Below, piece after piece: positions 3,164-24,572 of a DNA stretch of 32,537 nucleotides. Made by a program: the position numbers and the translations under genes. The stretch comes from Candidatus Omnitrophota bacterium (lineage in GTDB: Bacteria > Omnitrophota > Gorgyraeia > Zapsychrales > Zapsychraceae). The stretch covers positions 1-32,537 of the forward strand of contig JAKLDK010000008.1 in the NCBI GenBank assembly GCA_022703565.1, given 5' to 3'. Below the pieces are notes generated by a model. The model did not search any database, was not told the origin of the DNA, and worked only from the letters and a program-made list of their open reading frames with translations. Position 1 is the first letter of the stretch. Each line of letters begins with the position of its first letter.

Positions 3164-3337
3164 TTAACGACTGGGGACATGTATGGTACGTGTCACCAAG
3201 AACAATGTCTTAAAAAAGTTTAAAATAAGCCTAACAAAAACAGTTAAGACCAGGACAAAAATCAAATATTTTACTACGTTAACAGTTTTTAATAAACCAA
3301 GAATTTCCGCCAAGTTAATAGTTATAGTTTCTTTCAT
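3164..3337 (-). CDS. 57-aa single-span membrane protein (short ORF)
   Basis: This short frame starts MKETITINLAEILGLLKTVN and continues into the hydrophobic run YLIFVLVLTVFVRLILNFF, a single transmembrane helix at about residues 24-42. It ends TRTIHVPSR. The ATG has an AAGGA Shine-Dalgarno 9-10 nt upstream. The stop is 17 nt before the Shine-Dalgarno/start region of paralogue B, and the frame fills most of the space between two real genes. The C-terminal residues are encoded by a GGGGACAT...GTGTCACC repeat element. It has the size and shape of a small subunit or toxin-like membrane peptide, but the role is unknown. Confidence 0.6.
   Translation of the reverse strand: MKETITINLAEILGLLKTVNVVKYLIFVLVLTVFVRLILNFFKTLFLVTRTIHVPSR
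3174..3198. repeat. GGGGACA-type palindromic element overlapping a short ORF
   Basis: GGGGACATGTATGG followed by TACGTGTCACC is an imperfect inverted repeat of the GGGACA family. It encodes the last residues of the 57-aa membrane protein. Confidence 0.6.
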
Positions 3338-3391
3338 TTATTAATTTCCTTTTTTACAAAATATCTTTTAGTGCGCGTCCCAAAAATGTTT

Positions 3392-4132
3392 TTATGGAAA
3401 TAGAAAACTTGAGAGAATCTTCCATCCCCCACTAGCCAGTTGAACAAAAGCAAGCACAGCACCTGCCGACATTGAAATTTCTAAAAGGTATACAAGTAAT
3501 TTAGGAGGAGAATAAACAGAACTTATCGGGAATTCTTTTCTTTTGGCAAAATAACTATAGAAATTCTTATCGAGTTCAAAAATTTCACCAATATTCTCAC
3601 CTGATAACCACACGCATTTAATTATAACTTCCTCTTTGCCGCCATTCATACTTTTTGGTTCTTTTGACAATATTTTGAAATTACCTTTCACCTTGTTCGT
3701 AACCAACCATATCATATCCACGGCCCGTGCCCCATTTTCCCTTTTCTCAAAAAGTAATTGTATGGCAAATGTAGTTCTGTCTTCTTTAAACCCAATAACA
3801 GGAATGTTCTCATTCCAGGTCAACAGTTTTGAATATGCATAATATCGAGAAACAACACCGTTAATTACTGAGTTTAGCTTAAAAACAAACTTTAAATATT
3901 TGAGTAAGAGCCTATGGGATAAAAACAATGTATCCAACACAACGTACGGATTTTGGCTGTTTAGCTCTTTGTTATGTGGTAAATTTCGCTGAGTGTTTAT
4001 TATTCTTGCATAAGAAAGTGCTGGTTTCACAAAAACAAACCAAAAGATATTCGAAATTACACCTTGAATAGCTTTTGCTATCTTTAATAAAAGAAAGAAA
4101 AAAACACTAAATATTCTGCTTTCTATTTTCAT
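3392..4132 (-). CDS. Hypothetical protein with membrane segments at both ends
   Basis: The 246-aa product has hydrophobic stretches at about residues 8-36 (FSVFFFLLLKIAKAIQGVIS and onward) and 210-245. They flank a soluble domain of about 150 residues containing YYAYSKLLTWNENIPVIGFK, IQLLFEKRENGARAVDMIWL and KEEVIIKCVWLSGENIGEIF, which look like beta-strands. I recognise no family. The ATG is preceded by AAGGGGTGA. It lies 54 nt upstream of the 57-aa membrane protein and 50 nt downstream of the next hypothetical gene, all on one strand, consistent with an operon of membrane-associated proteins. Confidence 0.65.
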   Translation of the reverse strand: MKIESRIFSVFFFLLLKIAKAIQGVISNIFWFVFVKPALSYARIINTQRNLPHNKELNSQNPYVVLDTLFLSHRLLLKYLKFVFKLNSVINGVVSRYYAYSKLLTWNENIPVIGFKEDRTTFAIQLLFEKRENGARAVDMIWLVTNKVKGNFKILSKEPKSMNGGKEEVIIKCVWLSGENIGEIFELDKNFYSYFAKRKEFPISSVYSPPKLLVYLLEISMSAGAVLAFVQLASGGWKILSSFLFP

Positions 4133-4182
4133 TATTCACCCCTTATAAGGAATTTTCAGAGTACCATCCCCAGCTTTCCCCC

Positions 4183-4896
4183 CTACCCTCTACTCCCCGA
4201 CAGTAATTCCCTCGTGCCGTTTTTGTCCTGGATATAAACCTCCGGCGGAAAATCAATTGATTTCGGAATCTGGCTTTTAATCAATTCATACAAACGCTTT
4301 TGTTGCATCGTGTCTTGGGGGTCAAAAATAGGGTTTACGCTTAAATCATGCAAAATCAAAACCCCGGGGTCATTACTGAATTCAAAATTCTTGATAAGCT
4401 CTTTTACTAACAAATCCAGATAAGTGGGCTTGTCCTTGAAAATTTCCATCGACGTTTTGAGGATGATTTTTCCCCAGTCGGACTCGCCTATTTTCTGCAA
4501 GATCCCGTAAACGCTCGAGTATCTGACCAAACGCTCCGCGCCGGGGGTTAATTTGCGTGAATGGTTAAGAATGGTTCCGGCGAGTTCGTTAGGATTAAAT
4601 TTTTTTGTCTCCGAGTGGATATCGACGGTTAATAGGTCGAAAGTATAATTCCCCCGCGCGCCATTTGCCGCCTGAATAACGCTGCGGTTGATTAAATCTT
4701 CCAAGGCACTCCAGAGGATATCTTCGTCTTTACGGATAACGCTTAAAGCCAGAATCGAGCACGCCTGGCCTTCGTGAATAGCTTTGTATTTCCTAACCTT
4801 GCCGCTTTTAAATCCCTCGTAATGGATTTCATCAAACAAAGGCATCCTCAAGAAAAGGTTGGAATGCTGAATCCCGCCGGGAATTAAATCGAGCAT
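4183..4896 (-). CDS. Hypothetical soluble protein, 237 aa
   Basis: I recognise no family. The product has no signal peptide or transmembrane helix. It looks mixed alpha/beta, with an Asp/Glu-containing strand TFDLLTVDIHSETKKF, a helical stretch around LLVKELIKNFEFSND, and VLILHDLSVNPIFDP near residue 190. The ATG has AAGGA about 9 nt upstream. As the first gene of the co-oriented run at 1.5-4.9 kb, it would be the cytoplasmic partner of the membrane proteins encoded after it if the run is an operon. A heptamer tandem repeat lies just upstream of its start and could affect its expression. Confidence 0.6.
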   Translation of the reverse strand: MLDLIPGGIQHSNLFLRMPLFDEIHYEGFKSGKVRKYKAIHEGQACSILALSVIRKDEDILWSALEDLINRSVIQAANGARGNYTFDLLTVDIHSETKKFNPNELAGTILNHSRKLTPGAERLVRYSSVYGILQKIGESDWGKIILKTSMEIFKDKPTYLDLLVKELIKNFEFSNDPGVLILHDLSVNPIFDPQDTMQQKRLYELIKSQIPKSIDFPPEVYIQDKNGTRELLSGSRG

Positions 4897-7846: not shown

Positions 7847-8743
7847 TTAAGCTTGGCTCTTCCACCGACGGTGCATCCATCCGCCCCACTCGTAAGGATA
7901 CTCACGGACATATTTTTCAATGACAGCTGTAATCTTCTGGATGTTAACCTTTATTTCTTCAGCCTGGTCTTCTTTTTCTTCGTAATTAATCGGCTCTTCA
8001 ATCACAATTTTATGGTGGGTATCATTTTCGCGGATAATAAACATCGGTATTATGGGAGCGCCGGTCCTCCGATGAAAGACAGCCGGCCCCGTCGCTGTTG
8101 CTGCTGCTTTCTTAAAGAAATCAACAAAGATCCGCCCATCGCCGCCGAAATTCTGGTCGAGCATAATAAAAAGAAGCTCATTATTTCGAAGCGCCCGGAA
8201 CGATTTTTCAATACACTGCCTCTGCGGAAGGGCATAAATCGTGCATAAACCTTTTTCATTACGGAAATCCGTTATATATTGCTCAAAAGCACTGTCGCGC
8301 ATCCGCCTCATAATAACATTGGTTTTATATCCTTCCATAACCAGCCTAAAATACATTAGAAGGAATATTCCGAAATGCGCGCTTACGATAATCGCTCCCT
8401 TGCCTTGCGCCAAAACTTTATCTAAATTCTCTTTGCCTTCAATCCGGATTTTACTTTTAGTTTCATCCTCCCGGTCGGCAAAATAGATCATATCAATCAT
8501 TCCCCGCCCAAAGTTATCAAAACATTTGCGGGCAATTTCTTTTAATTCTTTTTCCGTCTTTTCACCGGCATAAGCATTACGCAAGCTCTCCATCGCTAAT
8601 TTCTTTAAAGGAAAAAGAAAACAATGGCCTAAAAATATGAAAATGTCCTGGAACAATTTGTATACCGGGTAAGGCATTTTTCTGATAAAAAACCGGCAGA
8701 GGAACAATAGGCTGCGGGCCAGTGCCCTTTTAATTCTTTTCAT
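7847..8743 (-). CDS. Lysophospholipid/lipid A acyltransferase family protein (LpxL/HtrB-like)
   Basis: The 298-aa size and layout match the LpxL/HtrB/MsbB family of inner-membrane acyltransferases, which add secondary acyl chains to lipid A or related glycolipids. An N-terminal hydrophobic segment is followed by GKGAIIVSAHFGIFLLM, then RRMRDSAFEQYI, MLDQNFGGDGRIFVDFFKK, TGPAVFHRRTGAPIIPMFI and the C-terminal YPYEWGGWMHRRW. The usual HX4(D/E) catalytic motif reads H123-F-G-I-F-L128, so the acidic residue is replaced by leucine. A comparable replacement (HLGNFPL) is, from memory, found in some divergent subfamilies. The ATG overlaps the panB stop as TAATG, implying translational coupling. A lipid A role is inferred; another phospholipid acceptor is possible. 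Confidence 0.82.
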   Translation of the reverse strand: MKRIKRALARSLLFLCRFFIRKMPYPVYKLFQDIFIFLGHCFLFPLKKLAMESLRNAYAGEKTEKELKEIARKCFDNFGRGMIDMIYFADREDETKSKIRIEGKENLDKVLAQGKGAIIVSAHFGIFLLMYFRLVMEGYKTNVIMRRMRDSAFEQYITDFRNEKGLCTIYALPQRQCIEKSFRALRNNELLFIMLDQNFGGDGRIFVDFFKKAAATATGPAVFHRRTGAPIIPMFIIRENDTHHKIVIEEPINYEEKEDQAEEIKVNIQKITAVIEKYVREYPYEWGGWMHRRWKSQA

Positions 8744-17895: not shown

Positions 17896-17924
17896 TTGAC
17901 AACCTACAATATTTATGTTACAAA
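17896..17924 (+). promoter_or_regulatory. Candidate helicase promoter giving a leaderless start
   Basis: TTGACA (17896-17901) is followed after 17 nt by TACAAA (17919-17924). Transcription would start at about 17931-17933, on or next to the ATG at 17933. A TACAAT at 17905-17910 is an alternative -10 but lacks a well-spaced -35. Confidence 0.45.
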
Positions 17925-17932
17925 AGCCCATT

Positions 17933-20104
17933 ATGGAATTAAAGGAAATCCTTAAAGAGAACAACTTTTCCAGTGAAAGTATAGAGGCGATTACTTCTTC
18001 CGGAATAACCGAGCTTTATCCGCCACAAGTAGAAGCTGTCCAAAAAGGTTTATTAAAAAGCAAAAACATCTTAATGTCTGTGCCAACTGCCGCCGGAAAA
18101 ACGCTCATGGCAGAATTATGCATGCTCAAATCAATATTGCAGGACAATGGCCGTTGCCTTTATATCGCACCTTTAAAAGCCCTGGCGTCTGAAAAATACG
18201 AGGATTTTAAGCGCAAATACGATTCTTTGGGAATAAATATCGGCATTTCCGTAGGAGATTATGATTATCTGGACAAGAATTTACAAAATTATCAGATTTT
18301 GATTGCCACCGCCGAAAAAGTCGATTCCCTCCTTAGATCCAAAGCCACCTGGCTAATTAATTCGCTAACTGTAGTTGTATTAGATGAAATACATTTTATC
18401 AATGACAATGGCCGCGGGCCGGTTTTGGAAATTTTAACCGCCAGGATAAAGCAACTGAATCCTAAAATCCAAATTTTGGCTTTAAGCGCAACGGTTAAAA
18501 ACGCGCTGCAAGTCGCCGGATGGCTAGAAGCCGAATGTGTACAAAGTAATTGGCGGCCGATTCCTCTAAAAGAAGGCGTTTATTATAACCAAAGAATTCA
18601 ATTTAATAATTACCCGAATAAAATTATTTCCGAAGAAGCGCCTGATGATTTAAACCAACTTGCACTTGATACATTGCGCGGCCGCGGGCAGATTTTAATA
18701 TTTGTTAATTCCCGGCGGAGCGCCCAAGCAGTTGCCCGGGAAGTTTGCTCCTCTTCCGCTAAAATATTAACGCCAGATGAAAAAAAAGAATTAATGGCAA
18801 TCGCCAAAGAAATCGTCGGAAGCAAAAGCGATGCGACAAAAATATGCCAGAAATTGTCCGACTGCATTATCCATGGGGTGGCCTTCCATCATGCCGGATT
18901 AAAACCGCACCAGAGAGAATTAGTCGAAAGAAATTTTAAAAAGAATTTGATCAAAATAATTTCCTGCACGCCAACACTTGCTGCCGGAGTCAATTTACCA
19001 GCCCGGCGGGCAATCATCCGCGATGTCAAAAGATTCGAAGCCGGAACAGGCGCAGCTTATATACCGGTCTCAGAATATAAACAGTGCGCCGGACGAGCCG
19101 GACGGCCGCAATATGATGATTACGGCGAAGCAGTTATAATGGCTAAAACCCTTTCTGAAGCCGAAACTTTAATGGATAAATTTATCCTGGCCGATACAGA
19201 ACCGATTTATTCAAAATTAGCCAGCGAATCAGCGCTACGCATGCATATCTTAGCCTCAATTGCCGGTGGTTACGTTCAAGATATTAAAGGTATGCTTGAA
19301 TTCTTCTCCCATACTTTCTTGCATTATCAGAAAATGACCGGAAACCTCTCGGAACTTATTGAAGGGATATTTGAATTCTTACACCGGGAAAATTTTATCG
19401 ATAAAAGTGAATCACGATTTTTTGCGACACCATTAGGCAATTTAACAAGCCGCCTTTATATTGATCCTTTTTCAGCAATAATAATCCGTAACGGATTAAA
19501 ACTTATTGCGGATAAACAAATTATATCTCTTCCCGGAGTAATACACTTAATAAGCTGCTGCCCGGATACCCCGTTAATCATGAATAGCAATAAGAAAGCG
19601 GCTGAAGAAGCGCAGAAATTTATTAGTGAAAATGAAAGAAACTTTATTTTAACACCCAAGAATTGCGAAATATTGGACGATTATTTCTTCTATTTATCCA
19701 CAATCAAAACTACTTGGCTTATAACGACTTGGGTCGAAGAAGAAAAAGAAGATTTTCTTTGTGAGCTTTTTAATATCGGGCCTGGCGATATTTACCGCCA
19801 CGTTGAAAGTTTTGAAAGGCTATTATTCGCCGCGGAAAGAATCGCGCACCTAATGCACTTTAGAAGCCTCACTTTCGGGCTGGATAATATTAAAAGGCGT
19901 GTCCGCTACGGCATCAAAGAAGAACTGCTGGAATTAGTCAGCTTAAGAAATGTCGGACGGGTTCGCGCTAGAATTTTATTCGATAACGGCTATAAGAAAT
20001 TGTCTGACCTTAAGAACCTATCTGAGGACAAATTATCCGGCATAAACAGTATTGGTAAAACCCTTGCCCGCAGCATAATTGCACAGCTTAATAAGGAAAA
20101 ATAA
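17933..20104 (+). CDS. Hel308/Ski2-like superfamily 2 DNA helicase
   Basis: This SF2 helicase of about 723 aa has archaeal Hel308-like architecture. In the 17915 frame, Q-like motif LYPPQVEAV is near residue 35, motif I PTAAGKT at 57-63, motif Ia APLKALASEKY, motif II DEIH at 157-160, motif III LSATV at 190, motif IV/V region GVAFHHAGLKPHQRELVE and TPTLAAGVNLPARR, and motif VI QCAGRAGRP near 391. A winged-helix and ratchet region follows, and the C-terminus has helix-hairpin-helix elements (LRNVGRVRARILFDNGYKKL, GINSIGKTLARSIIAQL). Hel308 unwinds lagging strands at stalled forks. I prefer the ATG at 17933 (MELKEILKE) over that at 17915. Neither has a Shine-Dalgarno sequence, and 17933 coincides with the predicted transcript start. 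Bacterial Hel308-like genes are uncommon. Confidence 0.88.
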   Translation: MELKEILKENNFSSESIEAITSSGITELYPPQVEAVQKGLLKSKNILMSVPTAAGKTLMAELCMLKSILQDNGRCLYIAPLKALASEKYEDFKRKYDSLGINIGISVGDYDYLDKNLQNYQILIATAEKVDSLLRSKATWLINSLTVVVLDEIHFINDNGRGPVLEILTARIKQLNPKIQILALSATVKNALQVAGWLEAECVQSNWRPIPLKEGVYYNQRIQFNNYPNKIISEEAPDDLNQLALDTLRGRGQILIFVNSRRSAQAVAREVCSSSAKILTPDEKKELMAIAKEIVGSKSDATKICQKLSDCIIHGVAFHHAGLKPHQRELVERNFKKNLIKIISCTPTLAAGVNLPARRAIIRDVKRFEAGTGAAYIPVSEYKQCAGRAGRPQYDDYGEAVIMAKTLSEAETLMDKFILADTEPIYSKLASESALRMHILASIAGGYVQDIKGMLEFFSHTFLHYQKMTGNLSELIEGIFEFLHRENFIDKSESRFFATPLGNLTSRLYIDPFSAIIIRNGLKLIADKQIISLPGVIHLISCCPDTPLIMNSNKKAAEEAQKFISENERNFILTPKNCEILDDYFFYLSTIKTTWLITTWVEEEKEDFLCELFNIGPGDIYRHVESFERLLFAAERIAHLMHFRSLTFGLDNIKRRVRYGIKEELLELVSLRNVGRVRARILFDNGYKKLSDLKNLSEDKLSGINSIGKTLARSIIAQLNKEK

Positions 20105-20350: not shown

Positions 20351-20390
20351 CTTTATCCCGAATGAATGAAATCACTAAAAGGAGAACACT

Positions 20391-23300
20391 ATGCGTTTAA
20401 CATCTTCTGCTAGGTTTATTCTATTTTTCATCTTGTCATTTTGTTTTATAACCATAAATATCCCCAGCACATTAGCTGATTCAGAGCCTCAAACTGACAA
20501 AGAAGTAACACAGCTGGCACGGTTAAACTTCAAACTTCCTTTTGGAGCTAAAAATATCTGTACCGATGCTGACAAAGATTCTTTTTATAAAGAAGGAAAA
20601 AACTGCGGAACCCAGGATTGCGATGATAACAACGCAAAGATTAACCCCAAAACTGATGAAGTTTGCTATAACGATATTGACGAAGATTGCGATGGCACAC
20701 TGGATAATAATTGCCCTTCCTGCGATAGCGATGAAGACGGTTTAAAAAAGATTGCCTGCGGCGGAAATGATATAGATGATACAAGTAAATCGATGGAAAT
20801 AACTTCTTTAGCAGTTGCTATCCCTGCAATTTCTTCGGTATCAGAAAATATTCTTAGTAACGGACAAAACATTACTATTAGTGGTAACAATTTTGGGACA
20901 AAAGTTGCCGTTAATGGACAGGTCGGCCCGCCTGTTTTATGGGATGATTTTGAAGATGGAACAGCTGGACAATTAGTCCAACCCAGCGCAACAAAGTGGG
21001 ACCGAGTGCGAAGTGATAATCCTTCCGGCCCAAGGTATTCTTCTGGTGCCATAGATGGATCCATGGGAGTTAGAACCGGCTCAGGTATAGTAAACGGCGT
21101 TACAGGCGGAACAACTAGGACTTTAATGGAAGATGACGAATATCGTAATTTGTACCTGGACTATTACATTAGAGCCGTTAAAGGCACAGGCCTTAAACAA
21201 AGATCAAATAAACAAGTAATGATTTGGAGCGCAAATGCTGGCGTTAGCGAAGACGGGCCCAATACTTTTTGGTGGCAAATTACCCAAGGCGGAGAAGAGC
21301 CTCCCTTCGCTCTTTCACAATACCCCTGCGGAAACGACCCTTATTCAATTAGCTATGGAAATGGCTGGGGTGTTGATGAGTTTACAACTGCGCGCCATGT
21401 TCAAATAGAATACCGCCAAGCTTCAAATATCCCCGGAGCACCGGACGAATTTGGTATTGCCCGTATGTGGTACGACGGTGTTCTCGTTACTAATGACAAT
21501 TCTTTCGGAAGCCCTTCCTGCGATCCGGATAGAAATTATTTGGATAATTTGTTTATTGGGCATTATCAGGACGTTGATTCCGCAGTTTCACCAATATATA
21601 TGTGGATAAGCTGCCCTGGACACGAACGCTGTGATGAATGTCCAGCCGGAGCTTCGGGATGTTCAGTAGATAATCCAGATTGGTTACCGGCTCGGCAGGA
21701 TGAATTCTTCTACGATAGAATCTATATCGACAAATCAATTGCCCGCGTAGAAATTGGCAACGCGCCTACTTATGCGACTTCAACCCGTCGTGAAGTTCAA
21801 GTTCCCAAAACTTGGGGAGATTCAATCGAAATTACAACAAACCAAGGAGGATTTGCATCTAATCAAACAGTTTATCTATATGTAATTGATTCTAGCGGCA
21901 ATGTCAATGAGACTGGGTTTCCTGTTGTTTTTTCAACAGAGGCAATTACTGTTTGCGGTAACGGAATATGTGATTCCGAAGAAACTGAACTTTCTTGCCC
22001 GCAAGATTGCGATATTTGTCCTGCCGGAGAAATAGCTTCAAGTTGTTATTGTGGCAATAATTCTTACAATAGCGGATACTGTTGCAATAATGAATGGAAC
22101 CCTTCTGACTGCGATAAAGATTGGATTAAAGCTTATGAGCAAAGTTTTGAATCATTAGGTAACGGTGGATTTAGCACTGTTCAACAAATAGTAGAACAAG
22201 ACCCTGTCCTCTATTCACCGATTGGATTATCCAGTTCATATGCTATTGAAAATGGCGCACTAAAAGATAATCTAGGAAATAGCGACGATAAAAGAAACCA
22301 TCGCTTGCAAATTAAACTAGACACGATCGGAGTAGAACCGCGAGGTGAATTCTATCTGCAAGCTGATGTTAAAATTGACCCGCAAAATACTTGGTGCTGC
22401 TTAGAAGGGCCTTACTGCCAATATCCCGTTGGCGAGTGTACTTTTGGCCAAAACGGCATAAAGACATCTTATGCCTTTGGAAATAATGGTACCTCCTGGG
22501 TTCCGAATTTTAACACCTCAGGGGTTTCCGATTTTTATCAAGGCATGCTTTTTGATAATCGCAGTGGAGCATCAGGATACAGGGGTGATTTCTCGGGAGA
22601 AATTTTCCGACAATTAAATGACGGGAATTACCATAAATGGACATGGTATTTCAAGCATAATACCTCAACCAATGGGAATTGGAATAATGACGGTATTTTT
22701 ATTTGGTATATCGACGGCAATAAAGCAGCTGAATTTTATAATGTACCTTTCACAACCAACACCTATGACGGTTCTTTTATAGATATAGATAAGCCTATCA
22801 CTTATTACGGCGGCGGAGCATTATTAGCGAATGACTGGTATTTTTATGTAGACAATTTAAAAGTTTTCCGGCCAGATTCTGACTCTTCAACCATTGACCC
22901 TTATTGTTCCGATTCTCTTTGTAACGGTGATGAAACTTGCGATTCTTGTTCGACAGATTGTGGATATTGCACGCCTTGCGCCGAAAGCACAGCAATAACA
23001 CAATTTTGCGAATGCGGCGGTTTGAATTATGATAGCGGTTATTGTTGCAACGATATTCATCAAACAACTCCATGCGTGAATGAAACTCAATGCAACTTAA
23101 CCCAAGCTTTATGGAACGGAATCAATTCAGTTCAAACAGTTGATGAAAGGTCATTAGTCACGCTTGAGGTCCAAGGGAATAACTGCGATGGAGAAACTGT
23201 ATCCTTTCAAATATTTGAAATTGACAGCGCAACTGATTGGGATTTAATAAACCCAACTTATCCCCCAATAGATATAACATTCTCCGGTAATACTGCTTTT

Positions 23301-24572
23301 GCTTATTGGGTAACTGAATATTTCCCTGATACAGACGGGCCGGACAATGGCCCAGAATTTATATTCCAGGCAACATTAGTTAGCGATCCCTCGAAGAAAG
23401 TAAACGTAAATTCAGATTTAGCCAGATTAAATATTGCCGATGTTGTTGAACCGTTTTGCGGCGACAATATTTGCAACAATAATGAAACATATGCAATTTG
23501 CCCGCAGGATTGTATTGATCCCGCAACGATTGAGTGGGATCCAAAATACGATCTTTCTTGCGATGGCGTTGTGAACTTATCTGATGTTGCTATTTTCTCT
23601 GAACACTATTATCAATCTTCCGGTAACGACCAAACATATTTCTGCGCCGATTTCAATCAAGATGGGGTCGTGAATGATGACGATAAAGATTTGTTTAAAA
23701 ACCAATTAGGCACAATGGGAGCGATTCAATGTTGCCCGCAGATGCAAGGTGATTTTTGCGGCAACAATGCTTGCGATGAAGAAGAAACCTTTGAATCTTG
23801 CCCGCAAGACTGTGAAGACCCGACGCCTTGTATCGACGCAGATAACGATGGCTACGGTGTAAATTGCGATTTAGGCAATGATTGCAATGACGCTAATCCA
23901 AATATCAATCCGGCAGCAAATGAAATCTGCGGCAATGATATCGACGAGGATTGCTCGGGTGACGCAGCCCCTTGCCCGGCAACAATAAATCTGATACAAA
24001 ATAGCTGGAATTTTTCAAGCGTCTCATGGGACGGAGATGCAATAGGAGAAAATCCCTGGTCTCCTCGTGAAAATTTTGTTTTCACCTCCGGACAAGCCGA
24101 CCCATTTGGTACAAATAAAGCTTTTAAGATTGCCTTAGCCAATAGTTCCCGAGGATGGCAACAACGCGATTCAACTCCTGATATCGTCCTAAATCACGAT
24201 ACTGTTACAGCATCGGTTTATGTAAAATACGGTAATACTTCTAACTTTATATTCGGCCTTACCCAGACTGATGTTTCATATACCGTCGGTGAGTTTGAGC
24301 AGACATTCGTTTTTGGTACCGATGGAGTTCCAACATGGTCAAATGCAAACGCACATCCACAAGACGGCCATTCGGTAACCAGCGTCGGAAATGGCTGGTA
24401 TAGGCTATCTTTAACATATAACTTGACCAACAGAGGAATTAAAGGCCATCCTTTTAAAGCAAGAATAACACCCGTCGGCTCTTCTTCCGCTGCCGGCGAC
24501 CATACTTACGTAACTGGTTTTCAATTAGAATCAGGAGTAAATGCTACAAATTACGCTGAAACAAACAATTGA
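20391..24572 (+). CDS. Giant secreted modular protein with MopE-like, dockerin-like and jelly-roll-like modules
   Basis: The 1393-aa protein starts with a signal peptide (FILFFILSFCFITINIPSTLA). Modules in order: a MopE-type Cys/Asp motif (about 57-108; DADKDSFY...DCDDNNAKINP...CYNDIDEDCDG); an IPT/TIG-like strand set (about 146-172; ISSVSENILSNGQNITISGN); a first beta-sandwich region (about 183-460); a CGNGICDSEE...CPQDC Cys repeat (about 521); a second beta-sandwich resembling a polysaccharide-lyase/concanavalin fold (about 578-835). Two further Cys repeats sit at about 838 and 1022. A dockerin-like pair of Ca loops follows (about 1053-1105; SCDGVVNLSDVAIF and DFNQDGVVNDDDKDLF), then another Cys repeat, a second MopE motif (about 1147-1197) and a C-terminal carbohydrate-binding-like domain. 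AAAGGAGAACACT precedes the ATG. It is probably extracellular and binds glycans or particles; no enzymatic residues are certain. Confidence 0.85.
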   Translation: MRLTSSARFILFFILSFCFITINIPSTLADSEPQTDKEVTQLARLNFKLPFGAKNICTDADKDSFYKEGKNCGTQDCDDNNAKINPKTDEVCYNDIDEDCDGTLDNNCPSCDSDEDGLKKIACGGNDIDDTSKSMEITSLAVAIPAISSVSENILSNGQNITISGNNFGTKVAVNGQVGPPVLWDDFEDGTAGQLVQPSATKWDRVRSDNPSGPRYSSGAIDGSMGVRTGSGIVNGVTGGTTRTLMEDDEYRNLYLDYYIRAVKGTGLKQRSNKQVMIWSANAGVSEDGPNTFWWQITQGGEEPPFALSQYPCGNDPYSISYGNGWGVDEFTTARHVQIEYRQASNIPGAPDEFGIARMWYDGVLVTNDNSFGSPSCDPDRNYLDNLFIGHYQDVDSAVSPIYMWISCPGHERCDECPAGASGCSVDNPDWLPARQDEFFYDRIYIDKSIARVEIGNAPTYATSTRREVQVPKTWGDSIEITTNQGGFASNQTVYLYVIDSSGNVNETGFPVVFSTEAITVCGNGICDSEETELSCPQDCDICPAGEIASSCYCGNNSYNSGYCCNNEWNPSDCDKDWIKAYEQSFESLGNGGFSTVQQIVEQDPVLYSPIGLSSSYAIENGALKDNLGNSDDKRNHRLQIKLDTIGVEPRGEFYLQADVKIDPQNTWCCLEGPYCQYPVGECTFGQNGIKTSYAFGNNGTSWVPNFNTSGVSDFYQGMLFDNRSGASGYRGDFSGEIFRQLNDGNYHKWTWYFKHNTSTNGNWNNDGIFIWYIDGNKAAEFYNVPFTTNTYDGSFIDIDKPITYYGGGALLANDWYFYVDNLKVFRPDSDSSTIDPYCSDSLCNGDETCDSCSTDCGYCTPCAESTAITQFCECGGLNYDSGYCCNDIHQTTPCVNETQCNLTQALWNGINSVQTVDERSLVTLEVQGNNCDGETVSFQIFEIDSATDWDLINPTYPPIDITFSGNTAFAYWVTEYFPDTDGPDNGPEFIFQATLVSDPSKKVNVNSDLARLNIADVVEPFCGDNICNNNETYAICPQDCIDPATIEWDPKYDLSCDGVVNLSDVAIFSEHYYQSSGNDQTYFCADFNQDGVVNDDDKDLFKNQLGTMGAIQCCPQMQGDFCGNNACDEEETFESCPQDCEDPTPCIDADNDGYGVNCDLGNDCNDANPNINPAANEICGNDIDEDCSGDAAPCPATINLIQNSWNFSSVSWDGDAIGENPWSPRENFVFTSGQADPFGTNKAFKIALANSSRGWQQRDSTPDIVLNHDTVTASVYVKYGNTSNFIFGLTQTDVSYTVGEFEQTFVFGTDGVPTWSNANAHPQDGHSVTSVGNGWYRLSLTYNLTNRGIKGHPFKARITPVGSSSAAGDHTYVTGFQLESGVNATNYAETNN

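Follow-up and report, generated by a model that had tools for sequence, protein, structure and literature searches.

The window analyzed here, a 32,537-nt stretch of a Candidatus Omnitrophota genome (assembly GCA_022703565.1, contig JAKLDK010000008.1), carries on its forward strand a frame at 20391-24572 that begins with ATG and encodes a 1393-amino-acid (aa) protein, which we propose is probably a secreted adhesin that binds glycans multivalently, has no catalytic role and is assembled in part from modules that phages also have. A prediction made earlier from the sequence alone (the original prediction) had suggested a surface or attachment factor, and this class proved to be the best supported one, given a phage-fibre-type carbohydrate-binding-like domain at the C terminus and a nested IPT/TIG module that is also found on viral contigs. 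Several lines of evidence point in this direction. The C-terminal domain scores above the curated cut-off of NCBIfam NF048003, its modeled fold is nearest to phage baseplate-complex proteins, tailspikes and carbohydrate-binding modules (CBMs), and a profile of it finds Rcc01080, the head spike fibre of the gene transfer agent (GTA) RcGTA, whose tagged form bound encapsulated cells better (reported in PMC10218006). The nested module occurs on seven viral contigs, in some of them beside virion genes, and MopE motifs occur together with Laminin_G_3 in paralogues encoded by the same genome, one of which also carries GHL15. In addition, a 2133-aa protein of genome G084 joins an NF048003 domain to trimeric-adhesin-like repeats, and an adhesin role has been proposed for giant open reading frames (ORFs) of Omnitrophota that carry Laminin_G_3 and dockerin domains (PMC10066038). 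Finally, of the 61 cysteines of the protein, Cys18 lies in the signal peptide, which leaves the mature protein with 60, an even number that is in keeping with an adhesin stiffened by disulfides.

The frame and its modules are laid out as follows, all on the forward strand:

20380..20384, +: Shine-Dalgarno-like AGGAG, 6 bases 5′ of the ATG, read directly from the sequence
20391..20477, +: signal peptide, aa 1-29 (hydrophobic windows; cleavage site inferred)
20604..20705, +: MopE-type Cys/Asp motif 1, aa 72-105 (PF11617, 38.2 bits at 20616-20705)
20823..20912, +: IPT/TIG domain part 1, aa 145-174 (PF01833 sub-threshold; model pLDDT, the predicted local distance difference test score, 78-93, with the last six residues in a block of 60; fold match together with part 2)
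20913..21719, +: insert in the IPT/TIG domain, ~270 aa, aa 175-443 (beta-rich, probably jelly-roll/lectin-like; alignments A2-A4; low-confidence model with strands)
21720..21938, +: IPT/TIG domain part 2, aa 444-516 (model pLDDT 82-92, first residues in a block of 62; invariant columns; fold match)
21954..22112, +: CGN repeat 1 followed by a GYCC-type Cys module, aa 522-574 (pattern, profile)
22116..22880, +: second jelly-roll-like region, aa 576-830 (by eye; no Pfam match)
22905..23075, +: CGN repeat 2 followed by a GYCC-type Cys module, aa 839-895 (pattern, profile)
23097..23438, +: Ig-like stretch, aa 903-1016 (by eye; no Pfam match)
23457..23513, +: CGN repeat 3, aa 1023-1041 (pattern, profile)
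23547..23708, +: type I dockerin-like module with two Ca loops, aa 1053-1106 (PF00404; 2y3n_B match)
23757..23813, +: CGN repeat 4, aa 1123-1141 (pattern, profile)
23880..23966, +: MopE-type Cys/Asp motif 2, aa 1164-1192 (PF11617)
23979..24566, +: phage/GTA fibre-type carbohydrate-binding-like beta-sandwich, aa 1197-1392 (NF048003, phrog_5939, viral relatives, fold match)

The sequence immediately 5′ of the ATG is AAAAGGAGAACACT. In a hydrophobicity scan the top twelve 19-residue windows all begin at aa 1-12 and correspond to the signal peptide. The split IPT/TIG domain, the C-terminal fibre-type domain, the two GYCC-type Cys modules and the Ig-like stretch had been missed by the original prediction, and in our view it is the architecture of the protein, and not its separate domain families, that is new.

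We infer that the protein would be exported and would then fold with Ca2+ and disulfides into a semi-rigid extracellular chain. The chain would consist of MopE, CGN, GYCC and dockerin-like modules, stiffened by Ca and disulfides, and would carry at intervals up to three beta-sandwich units: the insert held by the IPT/TIG domain, the second jelly-roll-like region and the phage-fibre-type domain at the C terminus. In this scheme the dockerin would serve as a Ca-stabilized structural or weak adhesive module and would not plug into a cohesin. Multivalent attachment to polysaccharide could result from sugar-binding faces on the split-IPT unit and the C-terminal domain, and perhaps also on the second jelly roll, and the target may be a capsule, exopolysaccharide or cell-envelope glycan belonging to the bacterium itself, to a prey or host cell, or to detritus. 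If so, the protein offers a testable candidate for surface recognition by an uncultured, possibly host-attaching bacterium.

A number of points weigh against this proposal. The insert and the second jelly-roll-like region have neither a confident model nor a relative of known ligand. CBM-like folds also serve non-sugar roles, such that a shared fold does not show a function, and IPT/TIG domains also bind proteins. We saw no surface anchor on the protein, which may therefore diffuse away. Furthermore, genome G157 combines a nested module and a dockerin-like pair with a cohesin-like secreted protein (L164; 19.5 bits, below the cut-off, and found again by a lineage cohesin profile in which it is itself a row), so other members of the phylum may use docking.

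The nested IPT/TIG module

Pfam detects the IPT/TIG family (PF01833) at aa 145-171 with 17.1 bits, below the cut-off of 20.9, and the match covers the first 29 of the 84 model positions. A structure model built with nine viral-contig copies as alignment rows was confident in its first ~30 and last ~70 residues, whereas the insert between them was mostly below pLDDT 50. Foldseek gave no match to this model at E ≤ 0.001, and profile A4 of the module found no PDB sequence at E ≤ 0.1. When VIA-align re-aligned the Foldseek list, however, 80-95 residues running from positions 1-9 to positions 377-380 of the model superposed on single IPT-like domains in most of the 50 listed matches. The best of these was the IPT domain of cyclodextrin glucanotransferase (Z 13.0, root-mean-square deviation (rmsd) 1.4 Å over 83 residues, spanning model residues 4-379 with low-confidence stretches trimmed), and the others included NFAT/NF-kB, galactose oxidase, Met and the surface glycan-binding protein SGBP-B (Z 7.9). 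As part 2 alone has only ~75 residues, both halves must contribute to the match. In the alignments the invariant columns concentrate in the two IPT parts, and paralogues on contigs C104 and C120 share the same start, variable stretch and conserved end, the variable stretch being ~200-270 residues across copies as estimated from aligned lengths. Our reading of the model is that a large beta-rich segment interrupts what is otherwise a single IPT/TIG domain (aa 145-516). This domain would resemble the canonical family in the joint match of its two halves but differ from it in being interrupted and in scoring below the Pfam cut-off. The module as a whole has no Pfam model, and a limited literature search found no description of it; it can be defined as a domain within a domain that occurs both on viral contigs and in a bacterial lineage.

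The insert, in which Pfam finds no match, is probably jelly-roll/lectin-like. The two jelly-roll-like regions that had been proposed originally are plausible but unproven, since neither has a Pfam match, the insert is modeled at low confidence, and the second region lacks both a viral relative and a convincing PDB match (best E 0.17, to a photosynthetic reaction centre subunit). These regions are also where a catalytic site would have to lie if the protein were a secreted polysaccharide-degrading enzyme. ConA-like folds include lyases and glycoside hydrolase family 16 (GH16) members, and one paralogue carries the putative glycosidase domain GHL15, but the three Pfam matches listed for the protein up to E 10 (with filters that drop most matches above 0.1) include no enzyme family, and the insert sequence is poorly conserved between copies, so that we consider an enzyme unlikely. 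GH16-like catalysis in particular was rejected, as the protein contains no ExDxE or ExDxxE motif.

The home genome has three copies of the nested module, and in a sample of 384 genomes of the phylum the module was found in three: the home genome, the same-genus genome G001 (at a contig edge) and G157 (a partial match). The G157 copy (L086, 5575-7695) is part of a 706-aa protein that starts with a signal-peptide-like segment and combines the split IPT module with Big_5, a LamG-like domain and the C-terminal dockerin-like pair (PF00404, 17.9 bits, below the cut-off). Near the contig-edge copy of G001, at 1640-4582 of L087 (contig C128), we observed by eye a 980-aa papain-like protease with Cys-rich and propeller-like parts.

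Viral relatives were reached by alignments only, as was the case for the C-terminal domain. With the nested module of the window as a single query, six stretches of viral contigs were returned and none was confirmed, and there were no matches among plasmids; the G157 copy and three viral copies likewise had no match in the phage collection. With alignments as queries, 1 of 109 and then 7 of 60 candidate stretches were confirmed, amounting to nine full copies on seven distinct contigs. On one of these (L095) the nested-module gene is immediately followed downstream by genes for a terminase large subunit and a portal protein, on another (L097) a terminase and a tail-fibre gene are near it, and a third (L094) has a phage helicase. 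Ten proteins encoded next to or near module genes were tested: four matched virion or packaging families, one matched a helicase and five had no match. Five proteins of the L092 contig, the nested-module protein included, had no phage-function match, so for L092, L096, L098 and L099 the viral label is that given by IMG/VR. By eye, several viral copies have Sec-signal-peptide-like starts (L094 at 1047-2174 and 3221-4294, L095 at 3107, L096 at 3953, L098 at 3956), which would be odd for virion proteins; the two such genes of L094 lie close together.

We speculate that the split IPT/TIG-jelly-roll unit might be a receptor-binding module, so far undescribed, that is exchanged between virion genes of phages and adhesins secreted by a candidate phylum whose members attach to hosts and are perhaps predatory. 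One protein could then have taken up two unrelated phage-type receptor-binding modules, one towards either end, with which to attach to another cell's glycan coat; we regard this extension as tentative. A tree of 13 nested-module copies, in which long branches meet and one of ten inner branches is well supported, does not resolve the direction in which such a transfer between phage and bacterium may have gone.

The C-terminal domain

The last 196 residues (aa 1197-1392) match NF048003 (GTA_spike_fiber) with 50.9 bits against a curated cut-off of 36, and with 53.6 bits in a search of 92 genomes, and they also match phrog_5939, annotated ‘tail protein’. Eight of the 92 genomes have NF048003 matches at E ≤ 0.01, but only the home genome and the same-class genome G084 exceed the cut-off. 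As a single query, the C terminus returned four stretches of viral contigs, none of them confirmed, and nothing in phages, whereas a two-sequence alignment with the G084 protein yielded at least 62 confirmed viral-contig relatives among the matches listed (600 candidate stretches). The profile used below (A9) has 26 rows, of which 25 are viral (25 of the at least 62 confirmed loci); locus L163 was left out because it was misaligned.

An AlphaFold2 model made with the 25 viral rows is a beta-sandwich whose 10-residue blocks have pLDDT 61-96. Its closest structural match is chain 1 of 9b45, from the baseplate complex of phage Pa193 (Z 18.9, rmsd 2.6 over 177 residues), followed by a baseplate-complex protein of E217 (Z 17.5); such Pa193 and E217 chains are listed as ‘gp46 Baseplate wedge 2’ and ‘Structural protein gp45 / Triplex gp45’, not as tail fibres. 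The next matches are CBA120 TSP4 (Z 12.3), K2-2 TSP (Z 12.0) and CBM16/CBM4 (Z ~12), and Foldseek returned CBM16 and CBM22. In the PDB, the profile finds RcGTA Rcc01080 at E 1.3e-53. The domain thus resembles the NF048003 family in sequence and phage virion proteins and CBMs in modeled fold, but differs from Rcc01080 in its setting, as here it ends a secreted bacterial protein whose neighbours have no phage or GTA genes among their Pfam matches.

Two further occurrences of the family deserve mention. The G084 gene (L088, 2688-9086 on contig C1) encodes the 2133-aa protein named above, in which the repeats were recognized by eye as trimeric-adhesin-like head repeats, and the same-family genome G003 (contig C18, ~107522-107827, L067) has a weak NF048003 match, below the cut-off, in a frame of 25,949 aa.

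The dockerin-like pair and the search for cohesins

The calcium pair that had been noted as dockerin-like is borne out by the sequence. Two loops, at aa 1054 and 1087, both fit D-x-D/N/S-x-D-G-x-V-N-x-x-D, a pattern composed after the sequence had been seen and found at 0.0018 loops per shuffle of the mature protein. The module scores 21.1 bits against PF00404 in hmmscan and 27.0 bits in the genome search (curated cut-off 22.9), and it aligns without gaps over 54 residues to the PDB dockerin 2y3n_B (E 4.1e-8). The structure model left the fold undecided because no homologous rows were available, with blocks of the region at pLDDT 30-60. The original prediction would have been refuted jointly by a genome without cohesin and by calcium loops that do not form a dockerin; no cohesin was found, whereas the loops match a dockerin in sequence.

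The further step, that a dockerin implies a cohesin scaffold, fared worse. Such a scaffold, in the bacterium itself or in a neighbour, would make the protein a cellulosome-like subunit, a tempting reading given the canonical double loops, the cellulosomal family-48 hydrolase label of the matched PDB dockerin and the G157 combination described above. In addition, cohesins exceed the cut-off in 5 of the 92 genomes, four of which also have dockerins. The protein, however, holds the sole dockerin found in its genome (PF00404, E ≤ 0.01), and cohesin PF00963 has no match at E ≤ 10 either in the genome, which is 92% complete and could hold a cohesin in the missing part, or in the protein itself. A lineage cohesin profile (A10), made from cohesin-like domains of four relatives, also had no match in the genome at E ≤ 10, although it matched 6 of 6 other genomes, four of which had supplied rows and two of which (G007 and G091) had not. 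More generally, dockerin matches occur in 16 of the 92 genomes (over the cut-off in 13), and 12 of these 16 have no cohesin over the cut-off, including G032, whose 45 dockerin matches are accompanied by no cohesin at E ≤ 1. Cohesin docking to a scaffold is therefore unsupported, and we consider a cellulosomal role very unlikely.

A parallel is offered by the giant ORFs that are common in Omnitrophota, whose Laminin_G_3 domains and non-cellulosomal dockerins are the basis of the adhesin proposal in PMC10066038. Like them, the 1393-aa protein is large and combines a dockerin and probable lectin-like modules with no cohesin partner found; it differs in having one dockerin, compared to the nine described there for a giant ORF, and in adding the phage-fibre-type and split-IPT modules. 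A dockerin also occurs in L163 (1369-2388), on a 39-kb contig classed as viral, together with a signal-peptide-like start and, judged by eye, a jelly-roll-like domain.

Genomic setting and cysteine-rich modules

The viral-contig relatives of both end modules raise the question of whether the gene is a captured prophage fragment, with a displaced fibre gene of phage origin that plays no part in the life of the bacterium. Its guanine-cytosine (GC) content is slightly higher than in nine neighbouring genes checked (0.416 vs 0.359-0.406), but at third codon positions it falls inside their range (0.337 vs 0.312-0.399), the protein has its own signal peptide, and two more nested-module genes, also with MopE motifs, lie elsewhere in the genome. 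The Pfam matches of the neighbours are housekeeping, chemoreceptor or none, with no phage or GTA genes among them (PHROGs was not run on the neighbours); neighbour labels such as asnS and ttcA are our own, from class-level matches. Gene order is partly kept in relatives: in the hel308 regions of five relatives, tatD-DTD-hel308 was kept in four, and the contig of the fifth ends there. Two of them, G003 and G004, also have recO-ybeY-HD-phoH-LysM-asnS further on, with different genes filling the gap, whereas recO was not found in the other three within the 5-8 kb read beyond hel308. This pattern places the gene at a spot of varying content among housekeeping-type genes, and a displaced prophage remnant seems highly improbable.

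The two MopE-type motifs that had been assigned, one to each end of the protein, were confirmed by PF11617 (two stretches, 49.6 bits in total against a cut-off of 27). The MopE* copper(I) site consists of His132, His203 and a kynurenine derived from Trp130 (as given in PMC3423442). A check of the His positions found none in either motif, so copper binding as in MopE* is not expected, the kynurenine itself being invisible in sequence; the motifs may instead bind Ca2+. Like MopE of Methylococcus capsulatus (PDB 2vov), the protein is probably secreted and carries the Asp/Cys motif, but its match to solved MopE (E 0.012 over aa 1151-1273) is not significant. A MopE-like copper-scavenging protein, for which the two motifs over the cut-off would speak, is very improbable given the missing histidines and this sole, insignificant link to the solved protein, and copper uptake was rejected accordingly.

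PF11617 occurs in 6 of the 92 genomes, and the home genome has 10 motifs in four proteins: the 1393-aa protein, two that contain the nested module (one of 791 aa, which also has Laminin_G_3, and one of 480 aa), and a 967-aa protein, encoded beside the 480-aa one, with Laminin_G_3 and the GHL15 putative glycosidase. The two adjacent MopE-motif genes, at 8286-12713 of L026 (genome G000, contig C120), have signal-peptide-like starts, the second being the one with Laminin_G_3 and GHL15.

The claim of at least four CGNGIC...CPQDC-type repeats also held. Four instances of C....C...ET...C..DC, again composed with the sequence in view, start at aa 522, 839, 1023 and 1123, and none arose in 5000 shuffles of the mature protein. 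Repeats 1 and 2 run into a second Cys module that ends in GYCC and is also present in a paralogue, and a profile of these CGN/GYCC modules matched 9 of the 92 genomes at E ≤ 0.001.

Elsewhere in the window, a lipid A acyltransferase gene at 7847-8743 suggests that the organism has an outer membrane. The frame at 356-1405 encodes a DUF1016_N domain fused to a staphylococcal-nuclease-like domain. The frame at 17915-20104 encodes a full-length Hel308-type helicase (PRK02362, 816.8 bits, below the cut-off of 887) with Pfam archaeal helicase domain 4; of 8 relatives searched, 6 have a close match to this bacterial copy.

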